From Thermoflexales bacterium (GTDB lineage Bacteria; Chloroflexota; Anaerolineae; Fen-1058), in contig JAUQXC010000155.1 of the NCBI GenBank assembly GCA_030834825.1, positions 1 through 42,243 on the forward strand: a stretch of 42,243 nt of DNA, written 5' to 3'. Of this stretch, positions 39,330 to 41,464 are shown in pieces (within the stretch, counting starts at the first letter, position 1; every line of letters begins with the position of its first letter). Under the pieces are notes generated by a model that was not told the DNA's origin, ran no database searches, and worked only from the letters and a program-made list of their open reading frames with translations. A program made the position numbers and the translations under genes.

Positions 39330-39380
39330 CCGGGCGAATGGCGCCCGGCGCGTCGCCGGCGCACTGCGCCGGATACGACG
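39330..39380. repeat. GC-rich nested palindromes, REP-like
   Basis: CCGGGCG/CGCCCGG with loop AATGG (39330-39348) is followed by CCGGCGCA-C-TGCGCCGG (39356-39372), itself enclosed by CGTCG/CGACG. It lies about 90 bases upstream of the GDP-mannose epimerase start. No neighbouring gene explains it. Confidence 0.5.
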
Positions 39381-39458
39381 AGGCGACGTGGCCAGCGACG
39401 ACTTGTGAGGGCCGTGGAGCAATTGCCCTGACCCCTTTTCGAGAAACGGTCCTGGGCT

Positions 39459-39464
39459 TATAAT
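39459..39464 (+). promoter_or_regulatory. Candidate -10 box for the methyltransferase leader
   Basis: A perfect TATAAT with only a weak -35 candidate (TTTTCG at a 17-base spacing). It is the best plus-strand start signal before the orphan terminator at 39581 and the methyltransferase gene. Confidence 0.4.
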
Positions 39465-39503
39465 GTGGATGCGAAATCCAGCGCCTAGAAAGAAGATCAA
39501 CCT

Positions 39504-39545
39504 ATGTGTGCAGTCAAACAGATCCTGGCACGGCCACCCTGCTAG
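39504..39545 (+). CDS. Possible 13-residue leader peptide
   Basis: ATG at 39504 encodes MCAVKQILARPPC and then TAG. Only a weak AAGAAG lies upstream. It is reported because it falls between a -10 box and an intrinsic terminator ahead of a resistance-type methyltransferase gene, the usual place of a leader peptide. It could be chance. Confidence 0.25.
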   Translation: MCAVKQILARPPC

Positions 39546-39580
39546 ACCTTTCACTTCATCTCGCTAGTTGTTAACCTCGC

Positions 39581-39599
39581 GGCCCAACGGGCCTTTTTT
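39581..39599 (+). terminator. Orphan intrinsic terminator in the methyltransferase leader
   Basis: GGCCC-AAC-GGGCC followed by six T residues on the plus strand. No plus-strand gene ends within the preceding 1.3 kb, so it either ends a small RNA or attenuates transcription into the methyltransferase gene 170 bases downstream. Confidence 0.75.
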
Positions 39600-39710
39600 G
39601 CGTTTCCCTACTTTCCTTTAGAACCACCACCTGACGATCTGGACGGTGCCTGACGTCGCTGCACCTGGCGCGCCGCGCGATGCCGCGCCGCGTCTGCCCG
39701 CGCGCCTCCA

Positions 39711-39762
39711 CTCCATTCTGTTTCCGTTTCCGTCTCAGCGAAATCGGCACAACAGAATGGAG
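39711..39762 (+). promoter_or_regulatory. Inverted repeat that covers the methyltransferase Shine-Dalgarno
   Basis: Arms CTCCATTCTGTT (39711-39722) and AACAGAATGGAG (39751-39762) are perfectly complementary over 12 bp with a 28-base loop. The right arm contains GGAG of the GGAGG ribosome-binding site (39759-39763) for ATG 39770, so the folded mRNA would hide it. Confidence 0.65.
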
Positions 39763-39769
39763 GATAAAC

Positions 39770-40507
39770 ATGGAGAGCATTCAGGGCAAAGAGGCCCTGT
39801 TTATCGATACTGCCGAATTGCAGGCTCGTGTAAGGGGTTATCAACAGATCTTGATCGATCTGGGAACGGGTGATGGCCGCTATGTGAAACATGTCGCGCG
39901 CACGCGGCCCGACTGTTTTGCCATTGGTCTCGACGCCTGTCGTGAGAACTTGCGCGAAGCTTCTCGCCGCACGCCGCGCAATGCGCTGTATCTCATCGCC
40001 AACGTCCTGACCTTGCCTGCCGAGCTACAGGCTCTGGCGACCGAAGTGACCATCAATTTTCCGTGGGGCAGCTTGCTTGAGGGATTGCTCGCCGGCGATG
40101 CTGCGCTGCTGGCTGGGCTTGCCGCGCTCGCACGACCTGGCGCAGACCTAGCGGTACGTCTTAACGGCGGCGCACTGGCCGAGGCAGGTTGGTCATTGCC
40201 CGGAGGAGCAATGCAGATTCAACGGGTGTTGAGCGCAAATGGATTCAATCTCGATCAGTCGTTCGAGTTGAACGCCGACGTCTTGCGGCAGTTGCCCACC
40301 ACGTGGGCCAAGCGCCTCGCCTTCGGGCGTGATCCGCGCACCTGGCTGTTGCAAGGCAAACGTTGGGGGCGGCCAATTGGCCGCTCCCACAGCAAGGCAC
40401 TCGGCTTAAGCGCGAAGTGCGTTTTAATGCCTCAAGGCGCGCCGATACTCGGTGGGGCTGATGCCCAGCCAACGTCTGAAGGCGTGATTGAAGGCGCTTT
40501 GTCCTGA
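39770..40507 (+). CDS. NpmA/KamB-like 16S rRNA (A1408-N1) methyltransferase
   Basis: The protein has 245 residues from ATG 39770, with GGAGG eight bases upstream; starting there also matches the N-terminal length of NpmA. The SAM site is IDLGTGDGRYVKH. Further matches to the NpmA/KamB family are IGLDACRENLREAS, LPAELQALATEVTINFPWGS with Trp99, and TTWAKRLAFGRD with Trp179; two tryptophans at these places are needed for A1408 recognition in NpmA. The enzyme would methylate N1 of A1408 in the 30S decoding site, known to give broad aminoglycoside resistance. The family part ends near residue 198; the last 45 or so residues have no counterpart and are read through the 3' end of the convergent AraC gene. 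I infer function from motifs only. Confidence 0.85.
   Translation: MESIQGKEALFIDTAELQARVRGYQQILIDLGTGDGRYVKHVARTRPDCFAIGLDACRENLREASRRTPRNALYLIANVLTLPAELQALATEVTINFPWGSLLEGLLAGDAALLAGLAALARPGADLAVRLNGGALAEAGWSLPGGAMQIQRVLSANGFNLDQSFELNADVLRQLPTTWAKRLAFGRDPRTWLLQGKRWGRPIGRSHSKALGLSAKCVLMPQGAPILGGADAQPTSEGVIEGALS
40365..40388. repeat. Palindrome inside the methyltransferase 3' end
   Basis: GCGGCCAATTGGCCGC is a perfect 16-base palindrome extended by G-U and three G-C pairs to 12-bp arms. It lies where the family-conserved part of the protein stops, 36 bases from the end of the convergent AraC gene, and may mark the original end of the gene or act as a terminator. Confidence 0.5.
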
Positions 40508-41464
40508 GAAACCGAGCTGGCAGGCGATGTCATACAACGTCGACGTGCTTTCTCGTAGATAGCTGAGGGCTGCTTCCTGCCGTTGTTTATCCAGCAGAAT
40601 CTGGAACGTTGTGGATTCATGGCGGAGATGGTTTTGCAATTGTCGCGGGCTGATAGCTAACGCCGCAGCCACGCCTTTCAGCGTAGGTGCTTGGTGCTGC
40701 TGTAGCAGTTGCTCGATCCGGCAGGCTGCTCGATCGGACCAGCTCTCGACCTGGTAGATGGATCGCTCTACGCTCTGCGCCAGGTGCTCCAGATTTGCCA
40801 GCATCTGGGCATCGGCCATGGGAATCGGCCAGGCCAGCACGGCGCGCGGGAACTTCAGTTCAGTCCGCGGTTGATCGAACAAGCTGGGACAGGCAAAAAT
40901 CCGCTGATGTTCGCCGATGTCGGTCGGGCGGGGATGGGTGAAGTGCGCTTCAACAAACTGAATGCGGCCTCGTGTCAGGAGTCGCAGCGTATGCGCCAGA
41001 ACACACAGCGCTGCTTCAGCGTGGTGACGGTGGAGTGGGACACCTTCAACCACGGCTGGTTCGATCACGCGAAAGACATACTCGCCCTCACGGCGCAGCG
41101 AAGTCTGGAAAAAGTCAGTGCTGAGACTCTGATAGCGCGTCATCTTCTCTAAAGCTTCGCCGATGGTGGTGCAGTTCAGCAGCAGCGAGGTGATAATATG
41201 CCCGGTGGCCAACCGGTTCACCTTTTCGCCAAAGTGCAGGCCGAAGTTTGGATCATTCGATCGCGTCATTACCTCATGCCACAAAGCCAGGCATTTCTCA
41301 ACCGAAACACTCAGCGTTGGGCTTGCCAATAGGCCGGCCTCCAGCTCGACTGCTTCCAACGAGCCCGTGGCATCGATCCCTGCTTCGACGGCATAGCGGC
41401 ACACGACATCGACAAAGTAACTGGGAGTTAGCTGGCCGTGCTGTCTGCGCATGCGCTTCCTCAT
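40424..41464 (-). CDS. AraC family transcriptional regulator (OruR/ArgR type)
   Basis: The protein has 346 residues. The N-terminal 200 residues are the arabinose-binding-like domain of OruR-type regulators (LSVSVEKCLALWHEVMTRSN, DPNFGLHFGE, HFTHPRPTDIGEHQRIFACP). The C-terminal 90 residues are the double helix-turn-helix: LKGVAAALAISPRQLQNHLR, then STLYDIACQLGFSGQSAFNH and AFRRWLGISPTEYRRALR. ATG 41464 is taken as the start; ATG 41452, with GAGGA at good spacing, is equally possible. Its 3' end overlaps the convergent methyltransferase reading frame by 84 bases. Target genes cannot be told from the sequence; the divergent beta-lactamase-fold gene is one candidate. Confidence 0.9.
   Translation of the reverse strand: MRKRMRRQHGQLTPSYFVDVVCRYAVEAGIDATGSLEAVELEAGLLASPTLSVSVEKCLALWHEVMTRSNDPNFGLHFGEKVNRLATGHIITSLLLNCTTIGEALEKMTRYQSLSTDFFQTSLRREGEYVFRVIEPAVVEGVPLHRHHAEAALCVLAHTLRLLTRGRIQFVEAHFTHPRPTDIGEHQRIFACPSLFDQPRTELKFPRAVLAWPIPMADAQMLANLEHLAQSVERSIYQVESWSDRAACRIEQLLQQHQAPTLKGVAAALAISPRQLQNHLRHESTTFQILLDKQRQEAALSYLRESTSTLYDIACQLGFSGQSAFNHAFRRWLGISPTEYRRALRH

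Follow-up and report, generated by a model that had tools for sequence, protein, structure and literature searches.

In-frame stop codons conserved before or within A1408 16S rRNA methyltransferase genes of Chloroflexota and Nocardia suggest a readthrough switch responsive to aminoglycosides

The window (i.e., the whole stretch of 42,243 nt analyzed here, from a Thermoflexales bacterium of the Chloroflexota) contains a gene that, judged by its profile scores, is a 16S rRNA (adenine 1408-N1)-methyltransferase gene of the NpmA/KamB family, preceded by a leader with several putative regulatory elements (Table 1). The encoded enzyme scores 209 bits against the Pfam NpmA profile (PF24675; cut-off, 60), and its relatives of solved structure are Kmr, NpmB1, NpmA, and KamB. 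Its scores lie under the own cut-offs of the narrower NCBIfam WarA, KamB, NpmB, and NpmA models, and the enzyme is thus not WarA, KamB, or NpmA proper. Methylation of A1408 blocks many aminoglycosides.

Table 1. Elements of the leader and the methyltransferase gene, with positions in the window
Feature	Position	Strand	Basis
TATAAT, putative -10 promoter element for the leader	39459..39464	+	Sequence
CTAGAAAG in the 5' untranslated region	39485..39492	+	CTAGAA recurs in other leaders
Leader segment 1, MCAVKQILARPPC, and stop 1 (TAG, 39543-39545)	39504..39545	+	13 codons; conserved RPPC-stop
Leader segment 2, frame as segment 1, TFHFISLVVNLAAQRAFFAFPYFPLEPPPDDLDGA, and stop 2 (TGA, 39651-39653)	39546..39653	+	In-frame coding constraint
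Terminator-like hairpin GGCCCAACGGGCC and T6, within coding segment 2	39581..39599	+	GC hairpin 39581-39593, then six T
Leader segment 3, same frame, to TAA 39765-39767	39654..39767	+	Frame reading
ARAPP codons (putative proline-proline pause motif) adjoining the left arm of the Shine-Dalgarno hairpin	39696..39710	+	AR(G/A)PP in frame 0 in 47/47
Hairpin sequestering the Shine-Dalgarno, left arm (CTCCATTCTGTT)	39711..39722	+	Perfect 12-bp inverted repeat; z, -5.3; compensatory changes
Hairpin sequestering the Shine-Dalgarno, right arm (AACAGAATGGAG)	39751..39762	+	Overlaps Shine-Dalgarno GGAGG 39759-39763
16S rRNA (adenine 1408-N1)-methyltransferase gene, NpmA/KamB family, 245 aa	39770..40507	+	Pfam NpmA profile

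The initial annotation had described an attenuator-like leader for this gene, consisting of a TATAAT box, a 13-codon open reading frame (ORF), a hairpin followed by six T residues, and a perfect 12-bp repeat whose right arm holds the Shine-Dalgarno (SD) sequence. All of these are present in the sequence, and a leader with an SD-hiding hairpin is conserved at 47 loci, which disposes of one refuting condition named in that annotation, a leader missing from orthologues. That reading missed that the frame of the short ORF runs on beyond its TAG to a TGA and from there into the codons for ARAPP. The right arm of the hairpin includes the GGAG of the SD sequence, and in this genome the third segment of the frame ends in a TAA 2 nt before the ATG of the methyltransferase gene. 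A TATAAT or TACAAT box lies ~6 to 8 nt 5' of the leader ATG in many orthologous leaders, so near that these leaders look leaderless. The CTAGAA of the 5' untranslated region, which could base-pair with the 16S rRNA 3' end, also occurs in the leaders that do not belong to family f27 (L028, L062, L064 to L067, and L070), 12 to 20 nt 5' of their start codons. Rfam covariance models gave no family at the gathering threshold in the window and none of relevance in the leader at E values up to 5, and a search for tRNA and tmRNA genes returned none.

The set of leaders of this architecture (type I) comprises 47 loci upstream of NpmA-type (A1408) methyltransferases, with some counts made on 46 leaders; the loci are phylogenetically clustered, many of the genomes are draft assemblies, and related sequences are not independent samples. 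Segment 1 ends in a conserved RPPC (variants, PPW, RPPR, and RSPN) followed by stop 1 (in 46 leaders, TAA in 36, TAG in 9, and TGA in 1), and segment 2 ends in PTPDDLDGA (variants include DALDGG and EILDGT) followed by stop 2, which is TGA in 47/47 leaders and is followed by C in 44/47. The frame is kept across stop 1 in 46/47 leaders and across stop 2 in all 47. Segment 2 ranges from 18 to 62 codons, with 12 distinct lengths among 46 leaders, all in frame; both stops stay stops, segment lengths differ by whole codons, and the frame has been preserved through many separate length changes despite the kinship of the sequences. The variable part of segment 2 contains no in-frame stop, compared with 52 and 32 stops (84 in total) in the other frames, and composition shuffles of the segment (n = 2000) had a mean of 28.6 in-frame stops and never 0. 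From stop 2 to the RxPP motif of segment 3, in-frame stops are likewise absent at all 47 loci, compared with 9 and 24 (33 in total) in the other frames. The motif itself, AR(G/A)PP (TRGPP in one leader), stands in frame 0 in every leader, 7 to 39 codons past stop 2 and 44 to 59 nt upstream of the methyltransferase ATG; beyond it, the end of the frame is not conserved. A single type I leader is out of frame (L082, from genome G496), with a break of one base in a run of seven C residues located after stop 1 and before segment 2 ends, which represents either a sequencing error or a real loss; this leader fits the pattern beyond stop 2.

Substitution patterns point in the same direction. The pN/pS ratio is 0.16 in frame at the end of segment 1 (3.2 and 6.5 in the shifted frames), 0.18 at the PTPDDLDGA end of segment 2 (6.6 and 3.0), and 0.09 at ARxPP (4.2 in one shifted frame, the other having no synonymous changes at all). 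Segments 2 and 3 are under strong coding constraint, which suggests that the selected trait is passage through two stop codons, and the evolutionary evidence strongly supports translation across the leader stops. The leaders show the features of programmed readthrough, i.e., a stop fixed in place, in-frame constraint downstream of it, and, in many members, no alternative start for the downstream part. Conservation of RPPC and DDLDGA at the amino acid level goes beyond what passage alone explains. Two other readings of the leader were rejected. A stand-alone small RNA was dropped in view of the coding nature of segments 2 and 3, and a leader-enzyme fusion is not a conserved feature, as the frame from stop 2 to the ATG is 0, 1, or 2 (23, 11, and 12 leaders, respectively).

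The folding and covariation check proposed in the initial annotation upheld the SD hairpin. In the window, this hairpin folds far better than shuffled sequences (z, -5.3; 0/200), and 27 distinct arm pairs occur among 46 leaders. Across 16 aligned rows, 95% of the cells pair and 17 cells have changed on both sides, compared with 5.2 in shuffles (0/500), a signal that collapsed in slid controls. The SD sequence is almost always paired across the leaders (median unpaired probability, 0.03). RxPP ends at position 39710 of the window and the left arm starts at 39711, with a gap of a few nucleotides in the aligned leaders; a ribosome at RxPP, where it would presumably pause, would cover the left arm. 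The intrinsic terminator claimed for the window is a more qualified case: the hairpin with its six T residues exists, and a terminator-like hairpin recurs in segment 2 of 27/47 leaders, but the window hairpin taken alone folds no better than ordinary sequence (z, -0.6), lies inside segment 2, and belongs to an optional feature that is absent from 20/47 leaders, including 8/8 of those with an 18-codon segment 2. The surrounding 4.2-kb region holds 7 terminator-like sites (4.5 expected). We read the terminator as an optional layer of transcription attenuation that would be suppressed by a readthrough ribosome.

A second architecture (type II) is found in a sister clade that includes other Chloroflexota and Nocardia, the latter with warA. 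These genes, which lie on one side of a supported branch of the tree with type I in another group, have no leader; instead, codon 16 of the coding sequence is itself a stop in 53 genes, usually after VDVG or VDIG (TAA in 33, TAG in 18, and TGA in 2). The stop is present in 38/41 matches from one Chloroflexota class, the other three of which begin at or after the stop position, and in 12/12 matches from Nocardia. Among relatives lacking the stop, the commonest codon at this position is that for Glu (GAA or GAG), which a single base change would turn into TAA or TAG. The type II gene is otherwise open over ~197 matched codons, with a further stop in 4/53, and ends in an ordinary stop. Two genes (L021 and L022) have two adjacent stops, and another two (L091 from Chloroflexota and L124 from Nocardia) have the arrangement G-stop-F-stop, with one Phe codon in between; such double gates may have evolved more than once. 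A TANNNT box lies ~6 nt 5' of the ATG in many type II genes, a proximity that makes them look leaderless. In two members of family f108 (L092 and L093), the codon-16 stop is accompanied by an in-frame TGA near codon 124 to 127 of the methyltransferase; this additional stop is either a second gate or the result of decay in the genus.

A readthrough protein of a type II gene, modelled with Q at the stop and used to assess the fold including the N-terminal beta hairpin, had a pLDDT of 92 and matched the NpmA and KamB structures 3mte and 3mq2 from end to end (TM, 0.87 to 0.89). The position of the codon-16 stop falls in a helix of this model (residues 14 to 22), directly after the N-terminal beta hairpin. 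WarA, KamB, NpmA, and NpmB belong to the same enzyme family and share its fold, and Nocardia type II genes (e.g., L122) score over the WarA cut-off. None of the models for these families includes a stop codon, however, and the WarA model (NCBIfam NF051863) begins at approximately residue 26 of the conserved protein, i.e., after the stop, and the gate thus seems to have been overlooked. Because the model start lies past an in-frame stop, the annotated start of the clinical gene warA is probably wrong. This gene is reported to confer resistance, and WarA to methylate A1408 (Hershko 2024, Int J Antimicrob Agents 63:107089, as cited in PMC12488653).

The sequences strongly support one translated frame across conserved stops, an SD-hiding hairpin, and a stop within the type II genes, and the drugs countered by the enzyme family are precisely those that raise stop readthrough. 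Aminoglycosides are known to have this effect, which was modest (approximately twofold) for amikacin in E. coli (PMC10959953). We consider it quite likely that the methyltransferase is turned on when aminoglycosides increase readthrough of stop codons. In the resting state of a type I leader, ribosomes would end at stop 1, the SD sequence would stay in its hairpin, and the terminator, where present, would form. With aminoglycosides in the A-site, decoding errors would become more frequent, and a fraction of the ribosomes would get past both stops in turn (the second as UGAC), covering the terminator on the way, and arrive at AR(G/A)PP. A pause at the two prolines would hold the left arm inside the ribosome and set the SD sequence free. 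In type II, where codon 16 is the stop, readthrough would directly yield the full-length protein. Methylation of A1408 would then remove the drug effect and close the loop, and two stops in series would give low leak and a steep response. The drug trigger, the pause at RxPP, and the feedback are inferred; the feedback is the least certain of the steps and the off switch is uncertain, since expression of NpmA and KamB had mixed effects on fidelity (PMC12406665). The leader is probably drug-inducible, as the initial annotation had supposed. More broadly, these genes likely belong to an undescribed class of antibiotic sensors, in which A-site drugs would be detected via decoding error and readthrough of conserved stops (a pair in series in the leader, or a single or double stop in the gene) would switch on the A1408 methyltransferase that removes the drug effect, with two architectures in Chloroflexota and Nocardia, including warA, whose modelled start would lie downstream of the true one.

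Several other explanations were weighed against this readthrough switch. A gate of the same kind whose signal is not, or not mainly, aminoglycosides (i.e., a shortage of release factors, ribosome-targeting drugs of other kinds, polyproline/EF-P stress, or a general drop in fidelity) is unlikely but carries some weight, given that stop readthrough also rises under other stresses and that azithromycin raised it more than amikacin did in E. coli (PMC10959953). Against such a signal, the gate occurs before or inside one kind of gene, the product of which protects against A-site aminoglycosides, and the leader motif was found with no other gene: the PDDLDGA-stop pattern had 4 matches in 131 genomes of the phylum, 4/4 upstream of the methyltransferase. 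Quite improbable is an Erm-type device on the 13-codon ORF, to which the initial annotation had likened the leader, with a drug-stalled ribosome at RPPC shifting the hairpins and freeing the SD sequence and with the stops as ordinary ends of leader peptides. As in ermC-type systems, whose methyltransferases act on 23S rRNA, a leader peptide and an SD-hiding hairpin precede a methyltransferase that protects the ribosome, and the hairpin would be opened by a ribosome located on the leader. The conserved C-terminal RPPC of the short ORF and the covariation of the hairpin also fit such a device. However, the function of the leader does not end with its first ORF, as segments 2 and 3 lie in frame past the stops and are under coding constraint. 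In constrained folds, a ribosome placed at either stop also leaves the SD sequence paired (median unpaired probability with stop 1, 0.02), and only a ribosome that has passed both in-frame stops would reach the left arm. The type II relatives have the stop in the gene in place of such a leader, and the presumed signal here is miscoding rather than drug-dependent stalling on the first short ORF. Transcription attenuation alone, with the hairpin at 39581-39599 as the switch and the ORF coupling translation to it, would fit the recurrence of hairpin and T-run in diverged sequences; it is extremely improbable in view of the leaders that lack the hairpin and gives no account of the downstream conservation (PTPDDLDGA and ARxPP) or of type II. 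Translational autoregulation is known for sgm, a 16S methyltransferase gene of Micromonospora, and involves the hexanucleotide CCGCCC. Comparable post-transcriptional control, with the methyltransferase binding a copy of its rRNA site in its own leader, would agree with the presence of CCGCCC in 33/47 leaders (8.5 expected in shuffles). The hexanucleotide is, however, missing from 14/47 leaders and mostly coincides with Pro-Pro codons (CCG CCC), which explain it, and such control assigns no role to the stops. As the sole explanation it is highly improbable; it could be an added layer.

Under reinitiation, translation would terminate at every stop and resume farther along the transcript, with the type II enzyme starting after codon 16 and the upstream peptide serving only as a leader. 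The start of the NCBI WarA model after the stop and a GTG near codon 27 in some type II genes agree with it, yet the interval from the stop to SAM motif I contains no ATG, GTG, or TTG in 16/54 type II genes, and in the rest no such codon is preceded by an SD sequence. In type I leaders, an in-frame start codon is absent from 37/46 segments 2 and 44/46 segments 3, and none in segment 2 has an SD sequence, so that reinitiation gives no account of the constraint there. Reinitiation also does not require the same frame, which is nevertheless kept, and the residues before the codon-16 stop match the N-terminal beta hairpin of NpmA and KamB in number and register; we regard this explanation as very improbable. 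The chance that pseudogenes, sequencing errors, or a reassigned stop codon account for the pattern is practically negligible. Many of the assemblies are drafts and L082 is out of frame by one base, but the type II stop occupies one position in 53 diverged genes whose further matched codons are almost free of stops, all three stop codons are used, and the genes end in ordinary stops. The pattern is found also in four one-contig genomes (G030, G212, G350, and G830) and in twelve Nocardia genomes, and the resistance reported for warA, as cited above from PMC12488653, argues against a pseudogene.

The readthrough switch has a partial parallel in prfB (RF2), in which an internal stop likewise senses how efficiently termination proceeds and controls whether the remainder of the protein is made. 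UGAC, the usual context of stop 2 here, is also the context of the prfB stop. In prfB, the ribosome makes a +1 frameshift and the sensed quantity is RF2, whereas the segments downstream of the stops described here are in frame 0 and the gate may be TAA, TAG, or TGA (stop 1 and type II). Integron aac/aad leaders have been proposed to act as an aminoglycoside riboswitch (PMC7588185). There, too, a leader RNA is proposed to induce an aminoglycoside-resistance gene, but the drug is said to bind the RNA, whereas in the switch proposed here the drug effect on decoding would be the signal, and the conserved feature is a coding constraint rather than an aptamer. Neither A1408 methyltransferases gated by stop codons nor readthrough in the role of an aminoglycoside sensor turned up in a literature search, which left out bioRxiv preprints and many subscription journals; an earlier report elsewhere is possible.

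Sensing of aminoglycosides for the induction of resistance has been disputed, as the riboswitch proposal illustrates; if the switch described here is real, the sensed signal would be the miscoding that the drug causes, and the response would include its own means of turning off. The system would then be a clear example of bacteria using programmed stop-codon readthrough as a regulatory input. It bears on the clinical resistance gene warA, whose resistance may be inducible, and on genome annotation, as pipelines can call warA-type genes pseudogenes or assign them a wrong start. The leaders could also be used as miscoding sensors.

The methyltransferase gene is distributed sporadically, being present in 12/396 genomes of the class, 42/152 of family f27, and 40/400 of a phylum sample. 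Searches for relatives on plasmids and phages found none (one of the probes was approximate, i.e., a Nocardia N terminus extended with consensus-like residues), and none were found on viral contigs. A search for a Nocardia FmrO (G1405 enzyme) with stops gave no match, and the control genomes likewise gave none. In the window, a convergent gene on the minus strand (40424-41464), encoding an AraC-family regulator, shares positions 40424-40507 with the methyltransferase gene, the two overlapping at their 3' ends. Upstream of the leader, at 39342-39385, lies a dispersed REP-like repeat of ~44 bp, many copies of which, 82 to 91% identical, occur in the same genome and in those of its nearest relatives.
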